Made by a program: the position numbers and the translations under genes | The notes under the pieces: generated by a model | What the model was told of the DNA's origin: nothing | The model's input: the letters and a program-made list of their open reading frames with translations, nothing else | Databases searched by the model: none | In this document: piece by piece, positions 3,180 to 32,483 of the stretch | How the letters are laid out: each line of letters starts with the position of its first letter | Position numbering within the stretch: position 1 is the first letter of the stretch | Source of the DNA: an unicellular cyanobacterium SU3 | GTDB taxonomy: Bacteria > Cyanobacteriota > Cyanobacteriia > Cyanobacteriales > Microcystaceae | Length of the DNA: 42,910 nt | Assembly (NCBI GenBank): GCA_002172675.1 | Contig: NETF01000183.1 | Span: 1 to 42,910, forward strand | Direction: 5' to 3'

Positions 3180-3854
3180 ATGCACCAGTGCAGGAACAAA
3201 AACCTAAATCAAATAGAAGCATTATTGAGTCGCTACGGATTCGAGATCAAAGAAGTTAGCATTTCTGAGTTAATCGAAAAGTGGGTAGCATCTTACTCAG
3301 TTTATTGGATTCGTTTGGCTATTGTCGAAGCCCTTTATCAAGGACGTTATAAAGCCATTTCTGTTGAGCATATTCTTGCCCTTTGGAAACGTCTGGGACA
3401 TCCTACCTATCATTTTACCTACGAGTTTGAACGATTTATTACTCGTAATCTTTTTGTTGAAGATGTCAGCAATCATAAAATAGTAGAAGAACAACAACCA
3501 GAAGAACAGTCATCAACTCCAGAAAAACTTATAGAACCTGCCCCAAAAAATAATATTACCTTAACGCCGATTCAAGAATTAGTGAAGAAAATAGCAATTC
3601 CCATTTCTATTGCCACTGAGAAATTAAATCACAAAACTGAGAGAATTGAAGAGTTAAACGGGGCAGTTGCCGAAAAAGTAGAGCAAGAAAATACCGCGAT
3701 CGCAGAACAAGAAATAAACTCCCAAACTACCTTAACTCCACAAAAGACCCCTCGTACCATTAATCAATTTACTCCCCATTCCGATGCTTCAAACTTTTAT
3801 GGAAAATTGAGGGCTGTCGCTTATCAAGAACTAGAAGAAGATCAAGATAATTAG
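3180..3854 (+). CDS. Conserved cyanobacterial protein of unknown function, leader gene of the pix operon
   Basis: A 224-residue protein that I do not recognise as a named domain. Residues 1-95 look like a compact, mostly helical domain rich in aromatic residues (WIRLAIVEALYQGRY, HPTYHFTYEFERF). The rest is a low-complexity, Glu/Gln/Pro/Thr-rich tail that is probably disordered, and the last 25 residues look ordered again. It ends 55 bases before the first possible start of pixG and on the same strand, which suggests co-transcription with the phototaxis genes. A role as an accessory or adaptor for that array is an inference from position alone. No signal peptide or membrane segment is visible. 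Confidence 0.6.
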   Translation: MHQCRNKNLNQIEALLSRYGFEIKEVSISELIEKWVASYSVYWIRLAIVEALYQGRYKAISVEHILALWKRLGHPTYHFTYEFERFITRNLFVEDVSNHKIVEEQQPEEQSSTPEKLIEPAPKNNITLTPIQELVKKIAIPISIATEKLNHKTERIEELNGAVAEKVEQENTAIAEQEINSQTTLTPQKTPRTINQFTPHSDASNFYGKLRAVAYQELEEDQDN

Positions 3855-3984
3855 TGACTCATCATCATCCCTAATTTTTTCTTTTATCCTCAGGTCTAAA
3901 CCCCCTGAAATGTTATTTTTCTTGAAATTTAGGGAATCCTATAACCGTAACACTGTGATTAGTCACTTTATCGAAGATGCAATG

Positions 3985-5187
3985 ATGACAGCTTCCTATC
4001 CTCCTCAAAATCCAATTTCCATACCAGAATTTACACCCTCAAGACAAACTAGCTTTTTTGATACCCTCAAACAACCTAGATTTAGTGGTCAATTGATCCT
4101 GACTAATAGTAAAGGGGATAAATGGTTTTTTTACTTGTATTTAGGGCGCATTATGTATGCCACTGGGGGAACCCACCCAGTCAGACGGTGGCGAAGACAT
4201 ATCGCTCGTTATTTGCCTGAAATTGCCTCTAAATTATCCTCCTTGCAGCTAGATTTAGCCAGTTTAGGAAATCAAGACTTTCGCTTATGCTGGGAATATC
4301 AACTGTTGTGTTTGTGGGTAGAACAACAGAAAATTAGTCGCGAAAAAGCAGCGAGAATGATTCGTTCGGTCATTATCGAAGTGCTATTCGATATCACCCA
4401 AAGTATCGAAGTTACCTGTGAACTCAGACAAGATAACTTGCTTTCAACTCGATTGGTGTTAATCGATGCCGATCAATTAATTAACGAAGCTCATCAACAA
4501 TGGCAAGCTTGGCAAGGGGCAAAAGTTGCCGATCGCTCCCCTAACTCTGCCCCCATCATTAGACAGGCCGAAGAATTACAACAACGGACTTCCCCCCAAG
4601 TCTACCAGACCTTAAAACAACTCCTAGACGGCAATCAAACCCTACGGGATCTCTCAGTACGGATGAAACGGGATGTCGTTACTGTCACCAGTTCTCTACT
4701 GCCCTATGTTCAAATGGGATTAGTCGAATTAATCACCATCGAAGACTTATCCCCTCCCGTTTCCACTCCCACTCCCACCGCCACTGCAGCCACTCCAGAG
4801 GTTTCTGCCGGCCCATTGGTAGCTTGTGTCGATGATAGTCCCCTGATGTGTCAAACCCTGGAGAAAATTCTCGTCGGAGCCAACTATCAATTTTTAGGCA
4901 TCAACGATCCCTTAAGAGCGATCGCTATCTTATTAGCCCGTAAACCGGCTGTTATTTTCTTAGATTTGGTGATGCCCAACGCCAACGGTTATGAAATTTG
5001 TGGCCAACTGAGAAAACTCTCCTTTTTCCGTCATACCCCCATCATTATCCTGACTGGTAATGACGGCATTGTGGATCGCGTTCGGGCAAGAATGGTAGGT
5101 TCAACGGATTTTATGAGTAAACCGGTCAATCCTGATGTCGTTTTAAGTGCCATTCGCAAACATCTTAAACAAGAAAACGTAGCTTAA
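3985..5187 (+). CDS. pixG: PatA/PixG-type response regulator (PATAN domain plus receiver)
   Basis: The frame is open from 3910, but the first 24-25 residues look like read-through of untranslated leader. The ATG pair at 3982/3985 gives a start MTASYPPQ and about 400 residues. The N-terminal half carries a PATAN-type domain (the block GDKWFFYLYLGRIMYATGG). A Pro/Thr-rich linker follows, and a C-terminal receiver has VDDSP, the phosphoacceptor in FLDLVMP and a conserved Lys in MSKPV. In Synechocystis the homologous PixG heads the pix phototaxis operon and is thought to be a motility output regulator. In this window it precedes pixH, pixI, two pixJ-like genes and pixL in the same order. Assignment is by domain layout and synteny. 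Confidence 0.85.
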   Translation: MTASYPPQNPISIPEFTPSRQTSFFDTLKQPRFSGQLILTNSKGDKWFFYLYLGRIMYATGGTHPVRRWRRHIARYLPEIASKLSSLQLDLASLGNQDFRLCWEYQLLCLWVEQQKISREKAARMIRSVIIEVLFDITQSIEVTCELRQDNLLSTRLVLIDADQLINEAHQQWQAWQGAKVADRSPNSAPIIRQAEELQQRTSPQVYQTLKQLLDGNQTLRDLSVRMKRDVVTVTSSLLPYVQMGLVELITIEDLSPPVSTPTPTATAATPEVSAGPLVACVDDSPLMCQTLEKILVGANYQFLGINDPLRAIAILLARKPAVIFLDLVMPNANGYEICGQLRKLSFFRHTPIIILTGNDGIVDRVRARMVGSTDFMSKPVNPDVVLSAIRKHLKQENVA

Positions 5188-5210
5188 AGGAAATTGAAAC
5201 TTTTTCCTTT
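5186..5210 (+). terminator. Short hairpin after pixG, possible attenuator
   Basis: Inverted repeat AAAGGAAA (5186-5193) and TTTCCTTT (5203-5210) separated by 9 bases, beginning at the pixG stop codon. The stem is AT-rich and there is no downstream T-run, so full termination is doubtful. It could lower transcription into pixH or stabilise the upstream message. Confidence 0.3.
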
Positions 5211-5319
5211 GTAAATTTTACGTACCCTATCCATTAAAAATGTTACTTTCCTTAGGTTTTAGGGAATTGTAAGACTATAGAACCAGCTTAATCAAACATC
5301 AACTGAGGCAGAAATCATC

Positions 5320-5682
5320 ATGGGAACCGTCCTTGTCATTGAAGATTCTTTAACAGAAAGAGAAATTATTACCCAATATTTAAAACTTGCAGGTATCACC
5401 GCCGCCATCGCCAGTAGTGGAGAAGAAGCCTTAGAAAAATTAAATGGAGAATTGCCTGATCTCATTGTTTTAGATGTCGTTTTACCCGGAGTCAGTGGCT
5501 TTGAAATCTGTCGAGCCATCAAAGGCGAAGAACGGACCAGTAAAATTCCGATCATTATTTGTTCAACCAAAGACACAGATATGGACAAATTTTGGGGCAA
5601 ACGTCAGGGTGCAGATGCTTACATTCCCAAACCCATTGATCAAGATACCTTTCTCAGCACCATTAAACAACTGATTCCCTAA
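5320..5682 (+). CDS. pixH: Single-domain CheY-like response regulator PixH
   Basis: A 120-residue stand-alone receiver. All active-site residues are present: acidic pair E8/D9, phosphoacceptor D52 in VLDVVLPG, a Ser/Thr at the CSTKD block and K104 in YIPKP. It has no output domain and so should act as a diffusible CheY or a phosphate sink for PixL. It sits between pixG and the CheW gene pixI, 132 bases after pixG, matching the pixG-pixH-pixI order of the Synechocystis phototaxis operon. Start ATG at 5320. Confidence 0.88.
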   Translation: MGTVLVIEDSLTEREIITQYLKLAGITAAIASSGEEALEKLNGELPDLIVLDVVLPGVSGFEICRAIKGEERTSKIPIIICSTKDTDMDKFWGKRQGADAYIPKPIDQDTFLSTIKQLIP

Positions 5683-5703
5683 ATTTAAAAGGAGTGACCC
5701 ATT

Positions 5704-6258
5704 GTGGTTCAACATGGATTTTCTCAGATCAACTCGACAACAACCTCCCTAGAAAGCAAAGAACGTCATCAATTAGAGCAATTTTTACGATTTCAGTTAG
5801 TTCCAGACACTACCTTACTCTTACCCGTTAACCAGTTAACCGAAGTCATTACCATTCCCCTGGGTCAAATTGTTCCCATTCCTCAAATCCCCTCTTGGGT
5901 AATGGGAGTCTATAACTGGCGTGGAGAAATTCTCTGGATCATCGATTTAGGGGAATTATTAGGGTTAACCCCTTGGCATCAACAGCCCCGAGTCACCCCC
6001 ATTTATCGCACCATTGTTCTTCATTCTGGTAAAACCTCCCACAAAGTCGCTAAAGCTCATCGTCAGCATATTGGGGCGGTGGTTAGTCAAGTCGATGATA
6101 TGGAATGGTGTAATCCTAATGAAATTCAATCTCCTCCGGGATCAGCCGTGACCTCTGGCTTAGCCGCCTTTCTGCGAGGTTATTGGTTGCCACCCCGTGG
6201 AGATATGGTAGTGGTTCTCGACGGAGAAGCTATCCTAGCAGCCATGCCTAAACCTTAA
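5704..6258 (+). CDS. pixI: CheW-like coupling protein PixI
   Basis: A 184-residue CheW-domain protein. It begins with GTG at 5704, supported by AAAGGAG ending about 8 bases upstream; no ATG start fits this ribosome site. Features of CheW are visible: a beta-rich fold with LLLPVNQLTEVI, the block PSWVMGVYNWRGEILWIIDL typical of CheW beta-strands, and a C-terminal VVVLDGEAILA. CheW bridges MCP receptors and the CheA kinase. It follows pixH by 21 bases, so translation is probably coupled. It differs from the second CheW-like gene at the operon's end (16910), so the array has two distinct couplers. Confidence 0.85.
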   Translation: MVQHGFSQINSTTTSLESKERHQLEQFLRFQLVPDTTLLLPVNQLTEVITIPLGQIVPIPQIPSWVMGVYNWRGEILWIIDLGELLGLTPWHQQPRVTPIYRTIVLHSGKTSHKVAKAHRQHIGAVVSQVDDMEWCNPNEIQSPPGSAVTSGLAAFLRGYWLPPRGDMVVVLDGEAILAAMPKP

Positions 6259-6481
6259 TGATTCAACGGTTCAATTCAAAATCTTGACAAGATTCTACTA
6301 TAGACTTGCTTATTTTCTACATTGATTGCCTATTACTTAATTGAAAAAATTTAATTACTTTGAGCTTCTTCTTTATTTATCTTTACTACTCCTAACTTTT
6401 CACACCGAACTTAAGTAGCTATAGCACTACACATTAGGGTTAAGACATACCCAAGTTATGAACTCTAGTCCCAGCTGCCTT

Positions 6482-6512
6482 TTGACTTTTGCCTTTCCCG
6501 TAGCGGTATAGT
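6482..6512 (+). promoter_or_regulatory. Possible internal promoter in front of the first pixJ gene
   Basis: TTGACT at 6482-6487 and TATAGT at 6507-6512, separated by 19 bases, lie in the roughly 290-base gap between pixI and the likely ATG of the first receptor. The spacing is two bases longer than ideal and the -35 lies in a 'gcctt/gactt' repeat-like sequence, so this is only a candidate. The remaining gap (6259-6481) shows no gene. Confidence 0.25.
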
Positions 6513-6548
6513 ACCCCTTTATTGAAAACTCACTCTTTGGTTAACGTT

Positions 6549-9500
6549 ATGACTCAGACTTCTCCTAACTCAAATTCCCAGAATAATCACGAAAGCAACG
6601 GTTTTGTTTCTCAAGATGTTTCTGTTGAAAACGATCAATCCCCCCAAACCCCTGACACTGAAAGCAACGAATCCCAAATTTTAGCCATTGAAAGGGAAGT
6701 TACCCTTCCCCCAGAAAGTCCTAGAGACAAACCAACCACCAGCTCGAAACATTCGCCGATTATTCAATGGTGGCAAGATTTAACTTTACGTTCCAAAAGT
6801 ATTATCGCTGCTACAGCTATTGGTATCACCCCAGTTGTGGCAGTGGGTTCTTTAGCTTATGGTATTTCTAACAAGATTATCTACCATCAGACCAAAGCAA
6901 CAGAAATTTCCCGTGCAGTCGGGTTGAGCGATGAGGTGTCTCGGTTTATAAGCGATCGCTATCTCGATATCCAAGGGTTAGCCACCTTAGACACTTTTAC
7001 TAAAGCTGAGTTAAGAAATCAACTTTCTCCTCAAGATAAACAAAAAGTCTTAGATCGTTATATCAATATTTATCAGTTGTATGACAGTATTGCTGTCTTT
7101 GATTTACAAGGGGATGTGATTGGTCAATCCGGCGGAACCCCCCTGAAAAATCATGCTGATCGCGGTTATTTTCAAGAAGTTCTTAACACTAAATCCCCGA
7201 CTGTGACGCAACCTCTCATTTCTACCACAGAAGGAACATTTAACGTCTATTTCGCGGCTCCTGTATTGGATAGTCAGACGGGGGATGTGGTGGCGGTTAT
7301 TCGTTCTAGAATGCCTGTTAAACATCTGCAAAACGTGGTTAAGCAGGGGATGAATCAAGGAGAAGATATTTACTTAGTTAATAAGAATGAAGAGGTTTTT
7401 CTTGCTCCTGAGGGGATTAAAGTAACCCAAACCAATAGTGCAGGTAAAGTTGATGAGAGAAGCGAGAAGTTTGAACACCAAGCAGTTAAAGCGTCCTCCT
7501 TGTTTTCTGTTTATTCTACTCTTAACGATCAACAACAACCAGGAGCCAAGCTAGGTGCAACAGAATTAGTGGCTTTATCCCCTTTTACTAGCATCGATAA
7601 GCTACCTGATCTAGGATGGAATGCCGTTGTTACCCTCGATAATGCTGTCGCCTTTGCAACCCAGCGACGACTACTATCAGCTATCTTTTTGGGAACCTTA
7701 GTCACTGCTGGTTTAGCAGGGGCTGTCGCTATTCTGCTTTCTGAACAAATTACCCGTCCTCTACGCCGAGTTACCTCTGCAGTAAAGAAAATTGGTGAAG
7801 GGGACTTAGATGTAGAAGTAGAAGTATTAGGTCATGATGAGTTTGCTATTTTAGCCGAAAACGTCAACACCATGACCCAACAGATTCATACGTTAGTAGA
7901 AAAACAAACTTTCTCGACTCAACAAGCTAACCTCCTCGCTGAAATTGCCAGTAGCGTTATTGCCGATCGCCATGCCTTACAACGGATTTTAGATCGAGCC
8001 TTAGAAGGGTTACGAGAAGTCCTGAGAGTTGATCGGGTGGTCATTTATGAATTTAATTTTGATGGCTGTGCTTTTATTTCCCATGAATCCGTTGATCCGT
8101 CTTATCCCAGTGCTAAAGAACTACAAATCGGCGATCGCTGTATTCCTCCAGAACTCATTGAACAATACCGTAAAGGCCGCGTAGTAGCCACTGATAATGT
8201 CCATGAAGCTGGCTTTCATCCTGAACATTATCAACTCATGGAACAGTTGCATATTGACGCTAATTTAGTGGTTCCCATCATGAGACAAGGGGATGTGTTC
8301 GGATTATTAATTGCCCATCATTGCCAAGGAACTCATCAATGGCAAGCCGAGGAAATCTCCTTTATGCAACGTTTAGCCGAACAGTTAACTATTACCCTAG
8401 ATCGTATTATCTTACAACAGCAACAACGGGGAGATGCCAAACGGGCCCAACTATTACGGGATATTACTATTAAAGCTGCAGCCGCCCTCAACACAGAAGA
8501 AGTGATGCAGATAGCGGTTGAAGATATGCGTCGCGCTTTGAAAACCGATCGCGTACTGATTTACACTTTCGATGAGCAATGGCTAGGAACCATTGTGGCC
8601 GAAGACGTAGCCGACGAATATCCCAAAGCATTAAACGCCGAAATTATGGATCCCTGTTTTGCCACTAAATTCGTCGATAAATACCTCAATGGTCGGGTTA
8701 AAGCGATTTCAGATATCTATAACGCAGGACTGACCGAATGTTACCTCAATGAACTGAAACCCTTTAAAGTGCGTGCTAATTTGGTTGCGCCCGTTATTCG
8801 TAAAGGAAAATTATTAGGATTATATATTGCCCATGAATGTTCGGGCCCTAGAAACTGGACTCCTTCAGAAATTAGCTTTTTCTCCCAAGTGGCTGCTCAG
8901 ATCGGGTTTGCTCTAGAAAGGGCTGATCTGCTTGAACAACAGAAAATTTCTGAACAAGAACAAAGAAACGCCAAAGAACAATTACAACGACGGGCATTAG
9001 AATTACTCATGGAAGTTGATCCCGTTTCTCAAGGGGATCTCACCATTCGGGCTAGGGTAACAGAAGATGAAATTGGCACCATTGCCGACTCCTATAACGC
9101 CACCATTGAAAACCTGAGAAAAATTGTAAACCAGGTACAAGACGCGACCGGACAACTCTCTAACACCACTAATAAAAACGAGTCGGCGATTCGTTCTTTG
9201 TCCCAAGAAGCCTTTGAACAAGCACAGGATATTTCAGCAGCTTTAGATAAACTGCAGGCCATGAACGAGTCCATTCGCGCCGTTGCTGCCAACGCAGAAT
9301 TAGCCGAAGCCACCGTACAACAAGCCACCGAAACCGTAGAACATGGAGAAGATGCCATGAACCGTACGGTAGACGGCATTATGGCCATTCGGCAGACAGT
9401 AGCAGAAACTGCCAAAAAAGTAAAACGGTTAGGGGAGTCGTCCCAGAAAATTTCTAAAGTTGTGAACTTAATTAGTAGTTTTGCTGACCAGACGAACTTA

Positions 9501-9968
9501 TTGGCGTTGAATGCTTCCATTGAAGCAGCCCACGCAGGAGAAGAAGGACGAGGCTTTGCCGTGGTTGCCGATGAAGTGCGATCGCTGGCGCGTCAGTCCG
9601 CCTCAGCTACCGCAGAAATTGAAGCTTTAGTGGCCAGTATCCAAACGGAAACCAACGAGGTAGTAGCAGCTATGGAAGCAGGGACAGAACAGGTGGTAAC
9701 GGGAACAAAATTAGTGGATGAAACCCGTAAGAGTCTTAATCAAATTACGGCCGCCAGTATTCAAATTAGCGAATTAGTCGAAGCCATTACCCGGTCTGCC
9801 ATTGAACAGTCCCAAACCAGTCAAACCGTAACCCAAACCATGACTCAAGTGGCAGCCATCTCCGATAAAACCTCTACGGAAGCAGCTCAGGTATCTGACT
9901 CGTTCCGAGAACTCTTAGGGGTTGCTCAGTCCTTACAAGAAAGTGTCCGACAGTTCAAAGTCCAGTAG
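6549..9968 (+). CDS. pixJ1: PixJ-type photoreceptor/methyl-accepting chemotaxis protein, first copy
   Basis: Probable start is ATG 6549 (MTQTSPNS), giving 1139 residues; a TTG nine codons upstream is also in frame. Numbering from 6549: disordered tail to about 75, membrane helix 82-107, a Cache-like periplasmic sensor to about 370, second helix 375-397, HAMP 398-447, GAF1 465-619, GAF2 631-791, a second HAMP-like segment 823-860, then the MCP signalling domain to the end. GAF2 is a cyanobacteriochrome of the two-cysteine DXCF type: D701-P-C703-F and the chromophore Cys C731. C731 is followed by Tyr, not the usual His. GAF1 has DRCI (529-532) but Glu559 where the chromophore Cys would be, so it should not bind bilin. 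The MCP hairpin tip has His995 where Tsr has Arg388. It should sense light and control PixL. Confidence 0.9.
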
Positions 9969-10048
9969 TTGTCAAATAGAGTTTGAGAAGAACATTGAGA
10001 TGTTTCTTCTCACTCTTGTCCCTTCCATATCCTAACAAGACTTATCCC

Positions 10049-13000
10049 ATGACTCAGACCCCTTCTAAACCCACGACCCAAAAAATTGCTGATAATTGGA
10101 GTAATCCTAATCCCGACTCCAGTCCTTCTGTCAGTCCATTACACGCACCACAAGATTCTCTTACTAACTCCCCAGAAGCATCAACCCTTGAACCTCAGAC
10201 TTTTTGGTGGCAACGGTTGAGTCTTAAGGCCAAAGCGGCCATCATTGTTGTAACCATTGGTATCGTTCCGGTGGTCGCCACTGGCTTCATTGGCTATTCC
10301 ATTGCTCAAAAATCTATGGTGCAGCAAATTAAGCAAGAAAGTCAAGACGATGCCATTACTTTAGCAGAACAAATTAAATTATTCATAGCAGAACGCTATG
10401 ACGATATTCAGTTATTGGCTAATCTTCCTGTCTTTAGCGATCCTCAGATTGCCACAGCCACTTCTACTGAAGAAAAACAAAAAATATTAGCTGACTACGT
10501 TCAATCAACCGGAACTTATCAAGACGCTATTTTATTTAATCTTAATGGGGATGCCATTATTCATTCCCAAGGAAAAAGTATTCCCAACCATAAAAACTCT
10601 CCTTACGTTGGTAAGGTATTGCAAACGGGTAGACCATTTATTTATAAACCTAGTGCTGCTAAACTGCCAAAAGGTTCGATTAAAATTGTTGCTCCAGTTA
10701 AAGATCAAACCACTGGCAAAATGATTGGGGTAATACGCTTGGGAATGCCTGTTAATAATTTAGATAAAGTTGTTGATGCTTATTCTTTACTCGAAAAAGA
10801 TTACAAATTAATTGATGATTTTGATGCTTATTTTATCGCACCAGATGCTAAATATATTGGGAAAAACCCCAAAAAAGAATTTCAACATTTCTCTCAAAAG
10901 ACCTTAGACCAGAAAGCCCATACTTGGAAAGATATCAGTCAAATCACAGGTCAAAAAATCTTAGGTGCTTACGCTCCTATCAATAATGTCGCTAATTTTC
11001 CTGATTTGAATTGGGGCGTAATTATCGAAGCTGATACAAAAACAATTTTAGCAGCTCAAAGACAATTATTATTCACAATTGCTGTGGGAACATCGGTTGC
11101 CAGTCTTTTATGGGCATTAATTGCTGTTTTATTAGCCAATCGTTTGACTCGTCCTATTGTTCAGGCAACAAACGCTCTGACAAAAATTGGTCAGGGAGAA
11201 TGGGATACTCGCCTCAAGGTTTCAGGAACCGATGAATTAGGACAATTGGGAACAAATATCAACAGAATGTCCAGGCAACTTCAACAGTTTAGTCAACAAC
11301 AAACGGATTTAGTCGAAAAATCCCGTTGGTTGGCTAAAATTAGTGGCATGGTTGCGACCAATGAGAAGGAGATTAGAAAAAACTTTGATCAGATATTAGG
11401 CGAAGCAAAAGAAATGTTAGGCTTAGATCGCCTTGTTATCTATCGTTTTAATGATGATTGGAGCGGTTATATTGCTAATGAAGCTGTTTCTGCTGGTTGG
11501 CCTGTTGCTCTCAATGAAACAATTAATGACCCTTGTATTAGCGCAGAATTACTTGAAGCGTACCGAAACGGGCGAGTTGTTCCCACTGAGGATGTGTTTG
11601 CAGCAGGATTCCACCCTGATCATCAACAGTTAATGACACGACTGCAAATTAAAGCTAATTTAGTTGTTCCTGTGATCAATCAAGGTCAACTGTTTGGTTT
11701 ATTAATCGGCCATTACTGTAGAACGACCCATCAATGGCAAGAAGAGGAAATTAACTTCATGCGCCAGTTAGCGGGTGACTTAGGTTCTGTTCTTGATCGC
11801 GTTAGTTTATTACAAACCCAAGTTGCTGAAAATAAACGCTCCCAAGTGTTAAAAGATTTGGTGTTGAAATTGATTGGGTTATCTCAAACTAACATCATTT
11901 TTAATACGGCTGTTGAAGAAATTCGTCAAGCCCTTCAATGCGATCGCGTGATTATTTATGAGTTTGATGAAAATTGGCAAGGATTAATTATAGCCGAATC
12001 TGTCGATGAACATTATCCTCAAGCGTTAGGAGCATATATAAACGACCCTTGTTTTACCGAAAACTACGTAGATAAATATCGCCAAGGAAGGGTTCAAGCC
12101 ACCGATAATATTCATAATGCAGGTCTAACCCAATGTCATCTTCAACAGTTAGAACCCTTTGCAGTTCAGGCTAATTTAGTTGCCCCCATTGTCGTCGATG
12201 GGGAATTATTAGGGTTACTCATTGCCCACCATTGCGAATCGCCCCGTCATTGGCAACAGCCTGAAATTGATTTTATGACTCAGGCTGCCATTCAGATCGG
12301 GGTAATTTTAGAACGGGCTAACTTAATTAAACAACAAGCAATTGCCCAAGAAGAACAACGTATTGCTAAAGAAATGCTACAAGCAAGAGCAATGGAACTG
12401 ATTATGGAAGTAGAACCCATTAGTCACGGGGATCTCACAACTCGGGCTAAAATTACTGAAGATGAAATCGGTACCATCGCTGACTCCTACAACGTAACAG
12501 TGGATAACTTGCGTCGTTTAGTTTTAAACGTAAAAACCGCTGCACAACAATTTTCTAACACCACCGAAAATAATGAACAATTAATTAAAACCTTAGCCGA
12601 AGAAGCCCTCAAACAAGTTGAACAAATTACCGTGGCGGGCGATCGCCTCACGGCTATGAATCATTCTATTAATTTAGTTGCCCAAAATGCGGAGCAAACT
12701 CTCATGGCTTTTCAACAAGCTTCTGAGACAGTAGTTGTGGGGGAAAATGCCATGAATGAAACCGTAGAGGGAATGCTTGCCATTAAAGATACGGTGTCAC
12801 AAACCACTAAAAAAATACAGCATTTAGGGGAATCGTCGCAAAAGATTTCTAAGGTGGTTAGTTTGATTAGTCGTTTTGCTGCACAAACCCATTTATTAGC
12901 ATTAAAAGCCTCTATTGAAGCAGCCCGCGCTGGCGAAGAGGGACGAGGATTTGCAGTAATTGCTGATGAAGTTCGAGGGTTAGCCACCAGTTCGGCTGAA

Positions 13001-13363
13001 GCGACTGCAGAAATTGAAACTTTAGTTAATAGTATTCAAACGGAAACCAAAGAAGTAACCCAAACGATGAAAATAGGAACCGAACAAGTCGAAAAAGGCA
13101 CAGAATTAGTTGAACAAACTCGCCGTAGTCTTCAAGCAATAACAGTCGCTTCCGAGCAAATTAATGAGTTAGTTCGTGCCATTTCCCAAGCAACCGAAGA
13201 ACAATCTTTAACCTCTGAATCTATGAACAAGGTGATGGGGGAAGTCTCTGCCATTACTCACAATACTTCCGTTTCTGCCACTCAACTTGCTGACTCTTTC
13301 CAAGAAGTGCTTGCCCTTGCCCAACAGTTACAAGCCAACGTTAAACAATTCAAAGTTAATTAA
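10049..13363 (+). CDS. pixJ2: PixJ-type photoreceptor/methyl-accepting chemotaxis protein, second copy
   Basis: ATG 10049 (MTQTPSKP) is the likely start because it matches the start of the first copy; the 22 residues encoded upstream look like leader. The product has 1104 residues with the same architecture: membrane helix 61-85, Cache-like sensor, helix 339-364, HAMP 365-415, two GAF domains, HAMP-like segment and MCP domain. GAF2 is a canonical DXCF cyanobacteriochrome: D666-P-C668-F and chromophore C696 followed by His697. GAF1 keeps DPCI (494-497) but has Asp524 instead of the second Cys. At the MCP tip it has Ala945, His948 and Lys953 where most MCPs have Asp (or Phe), Asn and Asn. It lies 80 bases after the first copy. 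As I recall, Synechocystis PixJ2 lacks GAF domains, so the gene name is positional. Confidence 0.88.
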
Positions 13364-13398
13364 GGAATGGGGAATAGGCAATAGGAAAGCTTAAACCT

Positions 13399-13446
13399 TG
13401 CTCCCCTGCTCCACTGCTCCCCTGCTCCCCTGCTCCCCTGCTCTCT
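13399..13446 (+). repeat. Tandem 8-base repeat (TGCTCCCC) just before pixL
   Basis: Six consecutive units starting at 13399, 13407, 13415, 13423, 13431 and 13439. Four are exact TGCTCCCC, the second is TGCTCCAC and the last is TGCTCTCT. The repeat sits in the 109-base gap between the second receptor gene and the likely pixL start at 13473. It happens to be open in the pixL frame, which produces a spurious Cys/Pro/Leu-rich N-terminal extension. Short tandem repeats of this kind are common between cyanobacterial genes. Confidence 0.85.
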
Positions 13447-13472
13447 TATGCTTCCTGATTCTCTCAAAAACC

Positions 13473-16400
13473 ATGATGAACCCCGACATCCGCGATCAAG
13501 CCTATCAATTTTTTATTGAAGAAGTCCCCGAACTTCTGCAAATCATTGAAACTGGACTACTCCATCTCAAAGAAGAGCGTGATAAGTCCACTGTTCATGA
13601 AATTATGCGGGCTGCTCATTCTATTAAGGGTGGGTCTGCTAGTGTAGAACTCAATACGATTAAAGTCCTCTCCCATCGTCTCGAAGATATTTTTAAAGCT
13701 TTGTACGACGAGACGGTAGTCATTGATGATGATTTAGAAAGCTTGTTGTTAGAAGCGTTTGATCGCTTGCGTGAGCCTTTAGAAGAACAAATGAAGACGG
13801 GGAGTTTTGATGAAGACCAGGCCATTGAAACCGCGCTTCCGGTGTTTGAAGCCATCGAAGCGATTTTAGGGGATAGTATGGCTCAAGGAGAACAGTATAT
13901 TCCCTCTTCAGCAGATTTGGGGATTGATATTGTTTCTTCTTTGTTTGAAGTGGATGTGGCTCAGGGTTTAACTGATATTGAAAATGCCTTAGCTTCTGGG
14001 GACAATGAACAAGTTGCTCAAAGCTTACGCACTCAAGGGGAAGTGTTTAATGGATTCGCTGAACTCCTCGGTTTACCGGGGTTTGGGGAAATTGTAGAAA
14101 CAATATTGCAAGCCTTAGAAACCTCCCCATCGGAGGCTGTAACCATTGCTCAAGTGGCGTTAACTGATTTAAAACAGAGTCAGCATTTAGTTTTAGTTGA
14201 AGGCGATCGCATTTCGGGCGGTCAACCTTCTGAGCAGTTGTTAAGTTTGGCTACTGGAAATCGAGTTGAGACACCCACATCAGACCTATCTCCCTCAGTA
14301 GAAGAAACTGCCCCAGAGCCTTCTGCTCTCTCTTTAGATGATCTATTTCAAGAAACAGAAGAGGAAGCAGACTCATTATTGTTATCTGTAAATGAGGTGG
14401 ATACTTTCGAGCATCAAGAGATTCTAGAAGAGACAGCCGATAGTACCGTCGATTTTACTAACGCGCCTCCCTTAGATGATATTTTTGGCTCAACTGGTAT
14501 CGAAATAGAAGAACTAGACTGGGAAGGGGTTCCGGCTTTAGATGATGTTTTTGGAGAACCTTCTGACGAGCCATCGGAGTCAGTTGAAGAGACGGCTTCT
14601 CTCAATGATGTGTTTGCTCCTGCAGAAACCCCAATCGAAGAACCGTTATCTTTAGAACTTAATGAAACAGAAATTCAAGAAAATTTCAATACTTTTGTCG
14701 AGTCGGTAGAAGATGTTTTTGACACCTTACCTAGTGTTGAAGAAGAGAATAATCAATCCGCTTCACAAAAACCACTCTCTCCTGAAACTGTTAAACAATC
14801 TTTTCGTAAAACTCGTTCAACTCGTTCTTCTAGAAATCGTACAAGAACCCGAAGTTTGAGCCAACAAGAAGTATCAGAAACACAAAAAACGGCGGCTCCT
14901 CTTTCCGTTAGAGTCGATTTTAACCGATTAGAAAAAATGAATAATTTAGTAGGGGAATTAGTGATTAACCGTAATAGTTTATCCCTACAAAATGATCAAT
15001 TACAAAATAAAGTAAAAGATTTACTTGACCGATTTTCTTACTTCCAAAAAATTACCAATACCCTTAAACAATTATCTGATCAAATGGTCATTGCTCCTGA
15101 ACGTTATGGAGCTATACCAGTGACAGGACAAGCTTTAAATCGACAGGAAATTTTTACTCGTTCTCCCTTTCCTAGTGCTTCTGAATCTTCGGATTTTGAT
15201 TCTTTGGAAATGGATTCTTATAGCACTGTTTATTCTATTGTACAGAGTTTACTAGAAGAAATGATGCAATTAGAGGAATCTGTTGATGATATTGTTCTAT
15301 TTGCTCGTTCTTCTAATCAAACCTTAGAACAACAAAGACAAATGCTCACAAATCTTCGGGATGAATTAATGTGGGCGAGAATGTTACCTCTAGGGGAAGT
15401 TTTAAATCGCTTTCCTCGAGTCTTAAGAGATTTATCGAATAAGTATCATAAACCTGTTAAATTAAAGCTGACAGGCACTTCAGTTTTAGTGGATAAAGCA
15501 GCGTTAGAAAAACTTTATGATCCTCTACAACATCTTCTAAGAAACGGCTTTGATCATGGAATTGAAGCCCCAGAAATTCGTCGCAAGTTGGGCAAACCAG
15601 AACAGGGACAAATCGAAATTCGCGCTTATCACCAAGGCAACCAAACCATCATTGAAATGCACGACGATGGTGGGGGCTTAGATTTGGAAAAAATTGCTAA
15701 AAAAGCCGTTGAAGCAGGCTTAGTGACCCCAGAACAGGTGGCTGTGATGACAAAAGAAGCCCTACAAAATATTATTTTCGAGCCTGGGTTTTCTACGGCG
15801 AGTCAAGTCAGTGATCTTTCTGGTCGTGGGGTTGGTTTAGATGTGGTCAGAGAACAATTACGAGCTTTAAAAGGAACGGTTGCGGTCAGTTCTATGTCTG
15901 GCAAAGGAACGACGTTTACCCTTCGTTTACCCTTCACGTTAACCATTTCTAAACTATTAGTCTGTTTGATTCAACAGCATAATTATCATCAAGGATCAGC
16001 GATCGCTTTACCCTCCGATAGCATCGAAGAAATCATTATGCCAGAACCTGAACAGATTAAAACCTCAGGAGAACAACGGTTTTTGGCTTGGCAAAAACAC
16101 ATTATCCCCATTTATCCAGTACAGACATTACTTGAGTATCGTAGTCCTTGCCCTGAAGGGTTTACATCTCAGTCCCTACAGGGAATCACGACTCCGGATA
16201 ATTGGGGTTCACCCTTGCTAATTTTGCGACGAGGAGAGCGTTTATACGCTCTAGAAGTGAATCGTTTAGTTACTGAACAAGAATTAGTCATTAAACCCTT
16301 TGGTAAAGCGATCGCCGCCCCTGCTTACATTTATGGTTGCACCATTTTAGGGGATGGAACGTTAATTCCTGTGGTTAACGGAACGACATTACTTGAAGAA

Positions 16401-16859
16401 TGTTTAGACAATTATAATGGGTCAGCAAAATCGGCAGGTATTACAGTAGAAACTTCTGGGGATGAATCTTATACCCCCACGCCAATCACACAAAATCCTA
16501 CTATTTTAGTAGTGGATGATTCAGCAGCTCTAAGACGGACGTTAGCCTTAACGTTACAAAAATCAGGGTATCGAGTGCTACAGGCTAGAGATGGTAGAGA
16601 AGCCTTAGAACAATTACAACAGCCAGGCATTCAACTGGTGATTTGTGATGTAGAAATGCCTAATATGAATGGATTTGAATTTTTGGGGCAGCGTCGTCGT
16701 GATTCTGAACTGATGAAAATTCCTGTGGCAATGTTAACATCTCGAAGCAGCGAAAAACACCGTCAGTTAGCCACTCATTTAGGGGCAAGTGCTTACTTTA
16801 CTAAGCCTTATATTGAACAACAATTTCTCGAGACTATTCAAAATATGATTTCCGCTTAA
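13473..16859 (+). CDS. pixL: Hybrid CheA histidine kinase with receiver domain (PixL)
   Basis: Start chosen at ATG 13473 (or 13476), because upstream residues come from the octamer repeat; about 1128 residues. Numbering from 13473: HPt domain with His49 in AAHSIKGGS; a second HPt-like helical domain around 148-240 without His; an acidic linker with five short repeats LDDLF (288-292), LDDIF (334-338), LDDVF (356-360), LNDVF (377-381) and VEDVF (412-416); dimerisation/kinase core with N691 in the N box, DDGGG and GRGVGLDVV; a CheW-like regulatory domain; and a C-terminal receiver with phosphoacceptor D1059 and K1111. It should autophosphorylate under control of the two PixJ receptors and pass phosphate to its own receiver, PixH and PixG. 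The order is that of the Synechocystis pix operon. Confidence 0.9.
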   Translation: MMNPDIRDQAYQFFIEEVPELLQIIETGLLHLKEERDKSTVHEIMRAAHSIKGGSASVELNTIKVLSHRLEDIFKALYDETVVIDDDLESLLLEAFDRLREPLEEQMKTGSFDEDQAIETALPVFEAIEAILGDSMAQGEQYIPSSADLGIDIVSSLFEVDVAQGLTDIENALASGDNEQVAQSLRTQGEVFNGFAELLGLPGFGEIVETILQALETSPSEAVTIAQVALTDLKQSQHLVLVEGDRISGGQPSEQLLSLATGNRVETPTSDLSPSVEETAPEPSALSLDDLFQETEEEADSLLLSVNEVDTFEHQEILEETADSTVDFTNAPPLDDIFGSTGIEIEELDWEGVPALDDVFGEPSDEPSESVEETASLNDVFAPAETPIEEPLSLELNETEIQENFNTFVESVEDVFDTLPSVEEENNQSASQKPLSPETVKQSFRKTRSTRSSRNRTRTRSLSQQEVSETQKTAAPLSVRVDFNRLEKMNNLVGELVINRNSLSLQNDQLQNKVKDLLDRFSYFQKITNTLKQLSDQMVIAPERYGAIPVTGQALNRQEIFTRSPFPSASESSDFDSLEMDSYSTVYSIVQSLLEEMMQLEESVDDIVLFARSSNQTLEQQRQMLTNLRDELMWARMLPLGEVLNRFPRVLRDLSNKYHKPVKLKLTGTSVLVDKAALEKLYDPLQHLLRNGFDHGIEAPEIRRKLGKPEQGQIEIRAYHQGNQTIIEMHDDGGGLDLEKIAKKAVEAGLVTPEQVAVMTKEALQNIIFEPGFSTASQVSDLSGRGVGLDVVREQLRALKGTVAVSSMSGKGTTFTLRLPFTLTISKLLVCLIQQHNYHQGSAIALPSDSIEEIIMPEPEQIKTSGEQRFLAWQKHIIPIYPVQTLLEYRSPCPEGFTSQSLQGITTPDNWGSPLLILRRGERLYALEVNRLVTEQELVIKPFGKAIAAPAYIYGCTILGDGTLIPVVNGTTLLEECLDNYNGSAKSAGITVETSGDESYTPTPITQNPTILVVDDSAALRRTLALTLQKSGYRVLQARDGREALEQLQQPGIQLVICDVEMPNMNGFEFLGQRRRDSELMKIPVAMLTSRSSEKHRQLATHLGASAYFTKPYIEQQFLETIQNMISA

Positions 16860-16909
16860 CAGCAATCATTAAAACCTAAATAATTCATGATTGATTATCT
16901 TAAAAAACT

Positions 16910-17431
16910 ATGACTACTAAAACAATTTCTTATTACACAGCCAGCGTTGATCCCTCTTTAAGAGAAGTCGACACCCGTCGCCGTAAGTTGTTGGTCTTTC
17001 AAATAGGGACGCTTCATTTAGCGTTATCTGTAGAATCGGTCAAAAAAATCACTCACTACACTCCTCTGCAAGGGAGTGGCATCACTGCAGTGGGATTAAT
17101 TCATGTTGATGATATGGAAATTACCGCTATTGATCTTCACAAACGTCTCTTTAAAGTGTCTCAAACGCCAATGTCAGGGCGACAGTTTCTAATTTTAGCT
17201 AAAAATAGCGTTGACGAATTATTTGGAGTTTTAGTCCCTCAAACCCCTTCTCTTGTTGAATTACCTCTGAGTGAAATTCGCACTCTACCTAATTCATATC
17301 GTAATGGAGATACTTTAGAGATAGCGAGTCACGTGACGAGAGTGCAAGAAAATGAGCAGTTATTAACTGTATTTATTTTAGATGTTGATCGTTTAGTTCT
17401 ACCTATGGGCATGGAAAACTTTGTATTTTAG
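16910..17431 (+). CDS. CheW-like protein at the end of the pix operon
   Basis: A 173-residue protein whose middle matches a CheW fold: RRKLLVFQIGTLHLALSV, then VGLIHVDDMEITAIDLHKR and FLILAKNSVDELFGVLV. It follows pixL by 50 bases and is clearly on the same transcript path. It is diverged from pixI: the block corresponding to the receptor-contact strand has Thr/His-rich residues instead of the usual GVYNWRG-type segment. As I recall, the Synechocystis pix operon ends with pixL, so this is an extra coupler that may serve one of the two receptors. The function is inferred from fold and position. Confidence 0.7.
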   Translation: MTTKTISYYTASVDPSLREVDTRRRKLLVFQIGTLHLALSVESVKKITHYTPLQGSGITAVGLIHVDDMEITAIDLHKRLFKVSQTPMSGRQFLILAKNSVDELFGVLVPQTPSLVELPLSEIRTLPNSYRNGDTLEIASHVTRVQENEQLLTVFILDVDRLVLPMGMENFVF

Positions 17432-27513: not shown

Positions 27514-27682
27514 CGGTTTCCCTCCCCACATTAAATAATCGCTGTTGTCATTATAATCTTAACCCCTACTTTCTTTCTTCTTAGTTCAAATGATGGCCAA
27601 ACATCGTCTTGAGAATGATGTTAATTTTACTGAGGTTTTCGGGAATATTATCAATATAAATCTTTACTCTCGATAAACTGTG

Positions 27683-30256
27683 ATGAGTAATGCCTCTGAA
27701 GTCCGCCACCTGCTAGTAATCGCTGATCAACAATCTAGACGTATTGTTCCTTTAACGAATAATACGTATTCCATTGGTCGCGATCCTAATAGTAATATCT
27801 TGTTGTACGACCGCCAAGTCTCTCGCCATCATGCTACCTTATTAAAAATTGATAACGATAAAAATGATCAACCTTGTTATCGCATTATTGACGGTAATCT
27901 AGAGGGAAAAAAAAGTACCAACGGCATTGCTGTTAATGGAAAATATTGTTTATCCCATGATTTAGCCCCAGGGGATTTAATTCGGTTTGGGAATCAATCT
28001 CAAGCGAACTATCATATTATTGTTGATTCTGCTGAACTCGATTTACTAAAAAATCCCAACTCAGATAATCAAGTTGTTAATACTTACTTACCCTTAGATA
28101 ATGCTCCTTCTGAGGATAATTTGGCCTCTCTTGATGAAATTTTCTTAGAGGATGAGAATGAGGATGATGAACAATCTAACACGATGGCATTTAGTCATCA
28201 GGGAAAGAAGAAAGATTCAGAACCTTTTGAAAATCAAGCTTCTTTAGCTGATTCTAATCCTAACCCTATTATAGAAGTTGATTTCCAAGGACAGATTACC
28301 TATGTGAATGCTGCTGCTAAAATCAAGTTTCCTAACTTAATGAAATTACAATCATTTCATCCCGTTCTCCAAAATCTCATCGGAAATAGAACCCCTACCG
28401 AGGGAACTTCCTTTGTGCGAGAAGTGCAATTTGAACAAACATTCTTTGAGCAACATATTCACTATTTAAAAGAAAGTGAATGCTTAAGAAGTTATTTATT
28501 TGAAATCACGAAATATCGTAAAAGAGAATCGAAGTTAACGGCGGGGAAAGATCGCTATCGTTTCTTTTTTGAACAAAGTACAGAGGGGATTTTAGTTATT
28601 AATCCAGATACAAAACATATTATTGAAACGAATCAAGCTTATTGCCAATTATTAGGCTATAGTAGTGCTGAAATTATTGGTTGTAATCTGTATCAATTAT
28701 TAGAAACAGAACGGGATACTTTTAATGAAGAATTAGGAAAAATCACCCTTGACAATCCTTATATTATTAAAGAATCTTTTCATCGTCATCAAAATGGTTC
28801 ATTACTAGCGGTTGCTGGCAAAATTAGCCTTACTAGCTATCAAGGACAAGAGGTTTTATGTTTAACTGTTCGGGATATTCGTGAACGAAAACAAGCCGAA
28901 GAAGAACTACAATATCAACTGCTTCATGATCCTCTGACTAATTTACCCAATCGGGAATTATTTAAGCAACAATTAGGGGTAGCTTTAGCCCATGCCCAAC
29001 GTTATGAACATTTATTGGCAGTGATTTTTATTGATATTGATTCCTTTACCCATATTAATAATACATTGGGTCATTCTCTCGGTGATAAAGTATTACAAAG
29101 TTTTGGGGAAAGATTAAGTTCTTGTATTCGTGCCGGAGATACAGTTACCCGTTGGGGAAGTGATGAATTTGTTTTATTATTACCTCAGATTAAAAATACG
29201 GAAGATACTGTTAGATTAGCCCAACGTATTTTTGAAACCTTACAAGGTCCTTTTATTTTTGATGAGCATCGTCTACAAATTAAATGTAGTATTGGTATTG
29301 CCATTTATCCTCAAGATGGAAACAATGGAGAAGAATTATTAAAAAATGCGGATACCGCTTTATATCGCACTAAAGAACAAGGAAAGAACCACTATCAATT
29401 TTATAGTCCCCATTTAACGGCAGAAGCTGAACTTTTGTTACGGTTAGAAAGTCTCCTGCATCAAGCCTTAGAAAAGAAACAATTTTCTCTTCAATATCAA
29501 CCCCAATTGCAATGTAAAACAGGAAAAATTGTGGGGATGGAAGCTTTATTACGGTGGGAAACTCCAGCGTTTGGTATGATTATGCCCCAAAAATTCTTAC
29601 CCTTAGCTGCAAAAACAAACCTTATTTTACATTTGAGTAAATGGGTATTAAAAACGGCTTGTGAACAAAATTTATCTTGGCAAAAAGATGGTTTACCGCC
29701 TATTCCTGTCACCGTTAATCTGTCTGCAAAGGAATTTCAACAACCTCATTTAGCCACAGTAGTGGCCAGTATTCTAGATGAAACAGGACTTGATCCGCAG
29801 TGGTTAGAATTAGAATTAACAGAGTTAACCTTACGACAAAATTTGAATTTAGCTCGTAAGACATTACAGGATCTTCAAAATTTAGGGGTTCGTATTGCTT
29901 TGGATGATTTTGGTTGCGGTTTTTCCTCTTTAGGATACCTAAAACAATTTACTTTTCGCACTTTAAAACTTCATCAAGATTTCATCCGAGACTTACGGGG
30001 AACCTCGGAAGAATTGGGGTTAATTTCTGCTATTTTAGCCATAGGTAAGGGCTTTAATATGCGTGTTGTTGCTGAAGGAGTCGAAACCTCTGAACAACTG
30101 AAAATATTGCAGGATCTCGATTGTACGCAGATCCAAGGTTATTGGTTTAGTCGTCCTTTACCCACAAAAGAAGCGACAGAACTCCTCAGTAAAATTACGA
30201 GGAACAATTATATAGATTCTGCAAATTTTATGTCTTTACCGATGATAGATAGTTAG
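27683..30256 (+). CDS. FHA-PAS-PAS-GGDEF-EAL signalling protein, first of three
   Basis: Start ATG 27683 (a GTG codon directly before it is also in frame); 857 residues. Numbered from that GTG: FHA 25-110 (SIGRD, VSRHHATLL, STNGIAVNG), an acidic linker with SLDEIFLED at 150-158, a first PAS-like region about 190-280, a second PAS 290-405, GGDEF about 410-575 and EAL about 595-845. The GGDEF signature is GSDEF (493-497), so cyclase activity is doubtful. The EAL domain keeps E621, the NLS Asn, the DDFG pair and the catalytic Lys763, but reads KLH instead of KID. It probably acts as a c-di-GMP phosphodiesterase or sensor controlled by phosphothreonine binding at the FHA domain. Confidence 0.85.
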   Translation: MSNASEVRHLLVIADQQSRRIVPLTNNTYSIGRDPNSNILLYDRQVSRHHATLLKIDNDKNDQPCYRIIDGNLEGKKSTNGIAVNGKYCLSHDLAPGDLIRFGNQSQANYHIIVDSAELDLLKNPNSDNQVVNTYLPLDNAPSEDNLASLDEIFLEDENEDDEQSNTMAFSHQGKKKDSEPFENQASLADSNPNPIIEVDFQGQITYVNAAAKIKFPNLMKLQSFHPVLQNLIGNRTPTEGTSFVREVQFEQTFFEQHIHYLKESECLRSYLFEITKYRKRESKLTAGKDRYRFFFEQSTEGILVINPDTKHIIETNQAYCQLLGYSSAEIIGCNLYQLLETERDTFNEELGKITLDNPYIIKESFHRHQNGSLLAVAGKISLTSYQGQEVLCLTVRDIRERKQAEEELQYQLLHDPLTNLPNRELFKQQLGVALAHAQRYEHLLAVIFIDIDSFTHINNTLGHSLGDKVLQSFGERLSSCIRAGDTVTRWGSDEFVLLLPQIKNTEDTVRLAQRIFETLQGPFIFDEHRLQIKCSIGIAIYPQDGNNGEELLKNADTALYRTKEQGKNHYQFYSPHLTAEAELLLRLESLLHQALEKKQFSLQYQPQLQCKTGKIVGMEALLRWETPAFGMIMPQKFLPLAAKTNLILHLSKWVLKTACEQNLSWQKDGLPPIPVTVNLSAKEFQQPHLATVVASILDETGLDPQWLELELTELTLRQNLNLARKTLQDLQNLGVRIALDDFGCGFSSLGYLKQFTFRTLKLHQDFIRDLRGTSEELGLISAILAIGKGFNMRVVAEGVETSEQLKILQDLDCTQIQGYWFSRPLPTKEATELLSKITRNNYIDSANFMSLPMIDS

Positions 30257-30309
30257 TTTCTAAATACTTCTGGGAACAATAGAAATAGCCCTTGTTTTGT
30301 GTATCTGTG

Positions 30310-32406: not shown

Positions 32407-32483
32407 GAAACTATAAATTAAAAGCTCAAGAACCAATTAAAACCTAAAAAAAGATGCAACATAAATCAAAATAGTTACAGACA

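Follow-up and report, generated by a model that had tools for sequence, protein, structure and literature searches.

Why should a phototaxis operon with a single CheA-type kinase carry two full-length receptors side by side? The question is raised by positions 3180–17431 of a 42,910-nucleotide stretch of DNA (the window), which lies on contig C183 of a cyanobacterial genome that amounts to 5.6 Mb in 208 contigs. This region is confirmed as a pix-type phototaxis operon in which both receptors, called here R1 and R2, are full-length. A first-pass annotation, made from the sequence alone, proposed that two light receptors feeding one CheA could compare two colours within one array. The operon as it was noted then is an ordinary, well-preserved pix operon; the part of it that a specialist might not expect, and which was overlooked, is a reciprocal pair of residues at the signalling tips of the two receptors. 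Reciprocal, conserved substitutions at tip contact positions are carried by widespread tandem pix receptors, and their distribution suggests that the pair is designed to act as a mixed unit and not merely for the perception of two colours. No earlier description of this asymmetry, or of the role of the second receptor, was found in the literature searched, the coverage of which leaves out most subscription journals.

The receptors and their tips are placed as follows, where Tsr numbering is taken from an alignment with full-length Tsr (6s1k), in which 346 is added to the query position to obtain the Tsr residue:

6522–9968, forward strand: R1 (H-type, PixJ1 position), with the order TM-dCache-TM-HAMP-GAF1(DRCIP)-GAF2(DPCF..CY)-MCP, TM being a transmembrane segment and MCP the methyl-accepting chemotaxis protein signalling domain
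9486–9533, forward strand: tip of R1, Asp373 (D989, 9486–9488) and His388 (H1004, 9531–9533) in Tsr numbering
9983–13363, forward strand: R2 (K-type, PixJ2 position), with the order TM-dCache-TM-HAMP-GAF1(DPCIS)-GAF2(DPCF..CH)-MCP
12890–12907, forward strand: tip of R2, His376 (H970, 12890–12892) and Lys381 (K975, 12905–12907) in Tsr numbering

The tip of R1 thus reads Asp373, Asn381, His388, where position 388 is normally Arg, and that of R2 reads Ala373, His376, Lys381, Arg388, where position 381 is normally Asn. The two other MCPs of the same genome, on contigs C170 and C184, are of the canonical Asn381/Arg388 type. For this analysis an asymmetric-tip pair was defined as a Lys381 receptor adjoining a His388 or Asn388 receptor in one operon, and R1 and R2 form such a pair.

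The recurrence of the pair was followed in the regions around the best 60 PixL matches in genomes of the order (the window's own excluded) and in 79 named loci; seven duplicate contigs (four with receptor rows) were dropped from the locus counts, and near-identical sister genomes were kept. This left 60 pixL loci with two or three readable receptors and 50 with one. A Lys381 receptor is present in 44 of the 60, and in all 44 a neighbouring receptor has His388 or Asn388 (35 His+Lys loci, eight triples with Asn388+Lys and one triple with Lys+His+Asn). The other 16 contain neither residue and comprise 13 canonical pairs, 11 of them in Pseudanabaena-type loci (L114–L149), two Arg388+Gln388 pairs and one triple. 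Single receptors with at least 1.5 kb of upstream sequence are Asn381/Arg388 in 32 of 33 loci, the remaining one (L147) being a diverged His381/Arg388 receptor. Among 16 single-receptor loci cut closer upstream, nine are canonical and seven are Lys381, these seven lying at most 0.8 kb from a contig end; one further single Lys381 locus, L052, is frame-broken. In L018, L021, L046, L049–L051, L054, L055 and L092 the pix operon has three receptors, one of them with Asn388 and a second one with Lys381.

Counted by domain, 212 distinct MCP domains divide into 59 Lys381/Arg388, 49 Asn381/His388, nine Asn381/Asn388, 89 Asn381/Arg388 and six others, and Lys381 is combined with His388 or Asn388 in the same domain in none of the 212. 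The two types differ in little else that is constant. In 44 H/K operon pairs (L018 and L168–L171 left out, L173 included), only columns 373, 381, 388 and 399 of 265 show a fixed difference, which means that the column differs in 90% or more of the pairs and that its main letter reaches 70% or more of the rows on each side; position 370 differs in 98% of pairs and is less uniform among the H-type rows. Position 373 holds an acidic residue in 50 of 58 His/Asn388 receptors, in 13 of 89 canonical ones and in none of 59 Lys381 receptors. H-type receptors have His (or Asn) 388, usually with an acidic 373, and K-type receptors have Lys381 and Ala373, usually with His376. The mean tip charge is −3.4 in H-type (n = 62), +0.3 in K-type (n = 64) and −2.1 in canonical receptors (n = 89), and it is higher in the K than in the H partner in 55 of 58 pairs (16 duplicates and the contig-end fragment L156 were dropped from these counts and from the GAF cysteine counts below).

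Among 388 genomes of the order, 90 hold both tip patterns, 17 the Lys pattern only, four the His/Asn pattern only and 277 neither. The Lys-only genomes include two cut by contig ends (G307, G224), one true single (G174), seven of genus g54, of which three were inspected, and G077 and G382, in whose fetched regions no MCP was found; five more genomes of the genus of G382 carry a similar motif. Of the four His-only genomes one is cut (G070), one is real (G173), and in two the pattern belongs to more distant Che loci (G253, G118).

What could such a pair be for? In the accessible portion of PMC8144572 the E385–R388' contact is described as an inter-dimer lock, and the title of Gosink 2011 calls N381 a "key trimer contact residue". 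Because Glu385 is the normal locking partner of position 388, and 381 takes part in trimer contact, R1 would have lost a positive charge and R2 gained one at positions that matter for packing. R1–R1 packing would be without the lock and R2–R2 packing would be over-charged, so that trimers of dimers containing both receptors, or neighbouring dimers of the two kinds, would be favoured. The mixed unit would pass a joint signal to PixL via the CheWs, with R1 as the main light input, through its DXCF-type GAF2 and possibly its DXCIP-type GAF1, and R2 as the partner completing the tip, which may add a second light input or a Cache input. According to the parts of PMC4692393 consulted, one trimer of dimers in E. 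coli can contain receptors of different kinds, and chemoreceptor contact residues are nearly invariant. The MCP signalling domain and tip are common to Tsr, Tar and the pix receptors, but unlike Tsr and Tar the pix partners carry reciprocal non-canonical residues at two contact positions. On the sequence evidence, the balance tips slightly towards R1 and R2 being two halves of a heterotypic receptor unit in the pix phototaxis array. The stronger form of this reading, in which the two-part contact code of pix receptors (Lys381 versus His/Asn388 with acidic 373) would specify an obligate mixed unit whose second receptor essentially completes the tip and can lose its sensor, is put forward tentatively, as falling a little short of even chances. 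A natural and widespread reciprocal pair at near-invariant residues would be a ready-made test of how receptors choose partners and pass signals.

Several observations weigh against a mixed unit. Single Lys381 or His388 receptors exist: the Lys381 pix receptor of G174 lies on a 5.7-Mb contig (L154), and in G253, G118 and G526 a His388 MCP stands alone at a more distant Che locus (L163, L164, L175). Elsewhere the partner is of the wrong type, with His388 beside a canonical receptor in G173 (L162), Lys381 beside a canonical MCP of another Che system in the three inspected genomes, of seven, of genus g54 (L158–L160) and His388 beside His388 in another system of G086 (L168). G050, G024 and G027, genomes that have the Lys381 pattern elsewhere, also contain additional His388 receptors that lack a Lys neighbour within the fetched region (L166, L167, L172). 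The 16 multi-receptor loci noted above do without the swap, and the three pairs in which the charge trend fails are those of the separate Che system described below. The Fisher p-values ignore shared ancestry, and since the pattern is clustered on the tree the genome counts overstate independence. Outside the order, both patterns were found in six of 141 genomes, the Lys pattern only in none, the His/Asn pattern only in three and neither in 132; each of three both-pattern genomes opened (G441, G397, G430) has a tandem pair, and among the His-only genomes G526 has its single His388 MCP and the pattern region of G391 shows no MCP. This is modest replication, because five of the six positives belong to family f43 and G430 is the genome of L126, which had been used in designing the pattern.

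A last point against the mixed unit comes from the consulted parts of PMC4692393, where the tip contact residues of outer subunits are said probably to bind CheA/CheW; the same data could therefore mean CheW specificity, with R1 using one of the two CheW proteins of the operon and R2 the other:

5704–6258, forward strand: pixI, CheW (Pfam)
16910–17431, forward strand: second CheW, the usual companion of multi-receptor pix operons (Pfam)

Among loci with at least 900 bases downstream of pixL, duplicate contigs kept, a second CheW follows pixL in 46 of 48 asymmetric-tip loci, in 13 of the 16 multi-receptor loci without the asymmetry and in 20 of 40 canonical single-receptor loci. The gene that the first-pass annotation took to be extra is thus not extra, being usual at this place. 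The enrichment in asymmetric loci fits a choice of partner by each receptor, but half of the single-receptor loci and most canonical multi-receptor loci have a second CheW too, so that the gene tracks receptor number more than the swap. Division of the CheWs between the receptors is accordingly thought unlikely, although it fares marginally best among the alternatives to a mixed unit.

The proposal that R1 and R2 are differently coloured photoreceptors compared by PixL turns on their sensor domains. Both receptors have the architecture that had been read from the sequence, each with a dCache_1 domain (52.6 and 51.7 bits in the two receptors, the Pfam cut-off being 45), hydrophobic stretches flanking the Cache region on both sides, and HAMP, two GAF stretches and MCPsignal above the Pfam cut-off. 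The C-terminal MCP signalling domain (PF00015) scores 148.9 and 137.1 bits, and together with the membrane anchor, the tandem GAFs and a neighbourhood of pixG–pixH–pixI and pixL it makes both of them predicted phototaxis receptors of the PixJ type. The cysteines of the two GAF2 domains are found at:

8655–8741, forward strand: R1 GAF2, second Cys C712 (8655–8657) and canonical Cys C740 (8739–8741)
12050–12136, forward strand: R2 GAF2, second Cys C690 (12050–12052) and canonical Cys C718 (12134–12136)

In each receptor DPCF is followed by the canonical Cys 28 residues downstream, in agreement with the DXCF type assigned earlier to both. The best-scoring solved relatives of both domains are 3vv4 and 4fof, which, with 2m7u, are taken here to be TePixJ entries. 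Residue-by-residue alignment of R2 GAF2 with these three places both cysteines in register, and the Cys columns of R1 agree with those of R2 in the alignment made for this study. The window GAF2 cysteines thus lie in columns matching those of the DXCF cyanobacteriochromes TePixJ and SyPixJ1, from which R1 differs by a Tyr directly following its canonical Cys. GAF1 of R1 (7977–8399) has DRCIP, with Glu in the canonical Cys column, as in the DXCIP class, in which, according to the part consulted of a review (PMC5578081), the canonical Cys is missing and bilin is attached via the DXCIP Cys alone. GAF1 of R2 differs from that class: it has DPCIS, with a Cys at the DXCF position and no canonical Cys. 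Among 274 aligned GAFs, 27 have CIP and 11 CIS at the GAF1 Cys site without a canonical Cys. GAF1 may bind bilin, to judge from these motifs.

A two-colour comparison would gain from the dual-Cys set in both GAF2 domains, which share 52% identity and have unlike residues next to the canonical Cys on its C-terminal side (Tyr in R1, His in R2), from the DXCIP motif in R1 GAF1 and from the dual-Cys GAF kept in 36 of 58 K-type receptors clear of locus ends. Tyr or His at this place does not go with receptor type, because several relatives in the window genus show the opposite, CH in R1 and CY in R2. The accessible portion of PMC11284453 assigns phycocyanobilin-to-phycoviolobilin isomerisation to other residues, and therefore no colour is predicted from CY versus CH. 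The other K-type receptors comprise six with one Cys, nine with a GAF without Cys and seven with no GAF found by a profile made from the four GAFs of the window, so that 16 of 58 are without a GAF cysteine. The corresponding figure for H-type receptors is seven of 61 (49 with a dual-Cys GAF, five with one Cys, five with a GAF without Cys and two with no GAF found), and one of these seven, L148, is only part of a broken frame.

The comparison with Synechocystis goes in the same direction. The locus tags sll0038, sll0041 and sll0042 belong to its pix/tax1 operon in a table of PMC7076178. Genus g2 of the genome set is taken to be Synechocystis, and four of its genomes inspected (L014, L016, L053, L179) have the His388/Lys381 pair as in the window. 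In the two g2 first receptors tested dCache gave no match at E 0.001, while R1 of the window has this domain. The second MCPs of g2 and Snowella are open frames of only 173–224 amino acids from stop to stop, as opposed to the full-length R2 of the window with its dCache and two GAFs. No sensor domain was found in them: the two sent to Pfam, one from g2 (L016) and L103, gave MCPsignal only, and the GAF profile found no GAF in those of g2, which fits the statement in the first-pass annotation that GAF domains occur only in PixJ1 of Synechocystis. Lys381 is kept in all five short second MCPs inspected from the two genera. If the unit is indeed an obligate mixed one, PixJ1 of Synechocystis would have a partner consisting of a tip only, namely the second MCP without a sensor (by its position PixJ2, Sll0042). 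The second receptor of a model phototaxis operon, though sensorless, would then have a function, and to study PixJ1 by itself would be inadvisable.

The window genome itself points to a sensor swap in R2 as likely. From the N-terminus to GAF1 (9983–11812, the N-terminal half) R2 is only 17–37% identical by segment to five relatives of its genus, as against 75–89% in the MCP domain, and R1 is more evenly similar (53–94% by segment versus two of the five). The R1–R2 gap is 14 bases in the window versus 721–874 between the open frames in L189–L192. Because the N-terminal divergence of R2 contrasts with its conserved MCP domain, and R2-type receptors may be blind or sensorless, R2 sensors appear to be exchanged or lost while the tip stays. 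R2 of the window, with its bilin cysteines intact, would be one state of a partner that elsewhere is blind or reduced to its tip. Comparison of two colours may take place in this species, but it is not a conserved design, because CY/CH is not tied to the receptor, 16 of 58 R2-type receptors have no GAF cysteine and the conservation sits instead in the tip. The colour proposal keeps its pix operon, its two predicted cyanobacteriochrome receptors and its single CheA, and becomes secondary; as the explanation of the pair it is improbable, practically on a par with CheW choice. Its authors had named a common two-receptor layout with identical spectra in related genomes as what would tell against it, and the layout half of this is seen in the 60 pixL loci with two or three receptors.

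Less probable still is that the odd tips merely exclude pix receptors from whatever other Che arrays the cell has, R1 and R2 having no special contact. The canonical tips of the two other MCPs of the window genome agree with such insulation, but it leaves the need for two different, reciprocal changes unexplained, and single pix receptors are canonical even in genomes with several CheA-like matches.

A further question is whether the pattern was inherited once. The Lys381 and His388 labels are strongly clustered on a tree of 152 rows obtained after thinning at 90% identity. In a quick tree of 71 rows from hand-chosen loci with the tip columns masked, where groups were set by residues, though an earlier tree had been seen, a single clade was rejected for all Lys381 rows (p 5e-61) and, with other-Che rows and L162 left out, for pix Lys381 (p 1.2e-5) and pix His/Asn388 (p 7.9e-6). 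In four operons (L017, L083, L085, L087) the partner MCP domains are 80–83% identical, the median being 55%, and their tip columns still differ. Because of the clade rejections and these closely similar partners, the swap appears either to have arisen more than once or to have survived homogenisation. His388+Lys381 pairs are also present in a different Che system (L170, L171), the receptors of which have 450–490 amino acids and the kinase of which is 32–34% identical to PixL; in L169 of the same system His388 stands beside Arg381. Inherited paralogue differences without function are very improbable: the tree clustering does indicate that much of the pattern is shared descent, but the repeated emergence or survival of the swap, its recurrence in another Che system and the persistence of Lys381 in sensorless second MCPs all speak against them.

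The remaining genes of the operon bear out, by open reading frames and Pfam domains, the description of a pix operon with two receptors and one CheA:

3180–3854, forward strand: leader gene, 224 amino acids, no Pfam family, from the open-reading-frame call and Pfam; pix link uncertain
3910–5187, forward strand: pixG, DUF4388 (PATAN-like) and receiver, output regulator (Pfam)
5320–5682, forward strand: pixH, CheY-like receiver (Pfam)
13398–16859, forward strand: pixL, CheA-type kinase with Hpt, HATPase, CheW and receiver domains (Pfam)

The gene order and parts are common to the Synechocystis pix/tax1 operon, whose order we take to be pixG-pixH-pixI-pixJ1-pixJ2-pixL. The closest named relative of the window PixL is that of Cyanothece sp. 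BG0011, followed by metagenome-assembled Crocosphaera genomes (best-segment identity 83–74%).

The leader gene, which had been noted as an unknown flanking gene, matched no Pfam family and has homologues in 47 of 50 genomes of the family. It adjoins pixG in the window, L189 and L190, lies in G304 and G316 at a distance of about 12 kb from the pix tip pattern and is elsewhere in others such as G007 and G129, so that it is a conserved gene whose link to the pix system is uncertain. Among the matches in the window genome no stand-alone CheR/CheB adaptation pair was found; its only CheR and CheB matches stand side by side in one frame of 1501 amino acids on contig C51 (L152, L153). Farther along the window, at 27680–34292, three consecutive large genes, read by eye from their translations as FHA and GGDEF/EAL-type, probably encode cyclic di-GMP enzymes.

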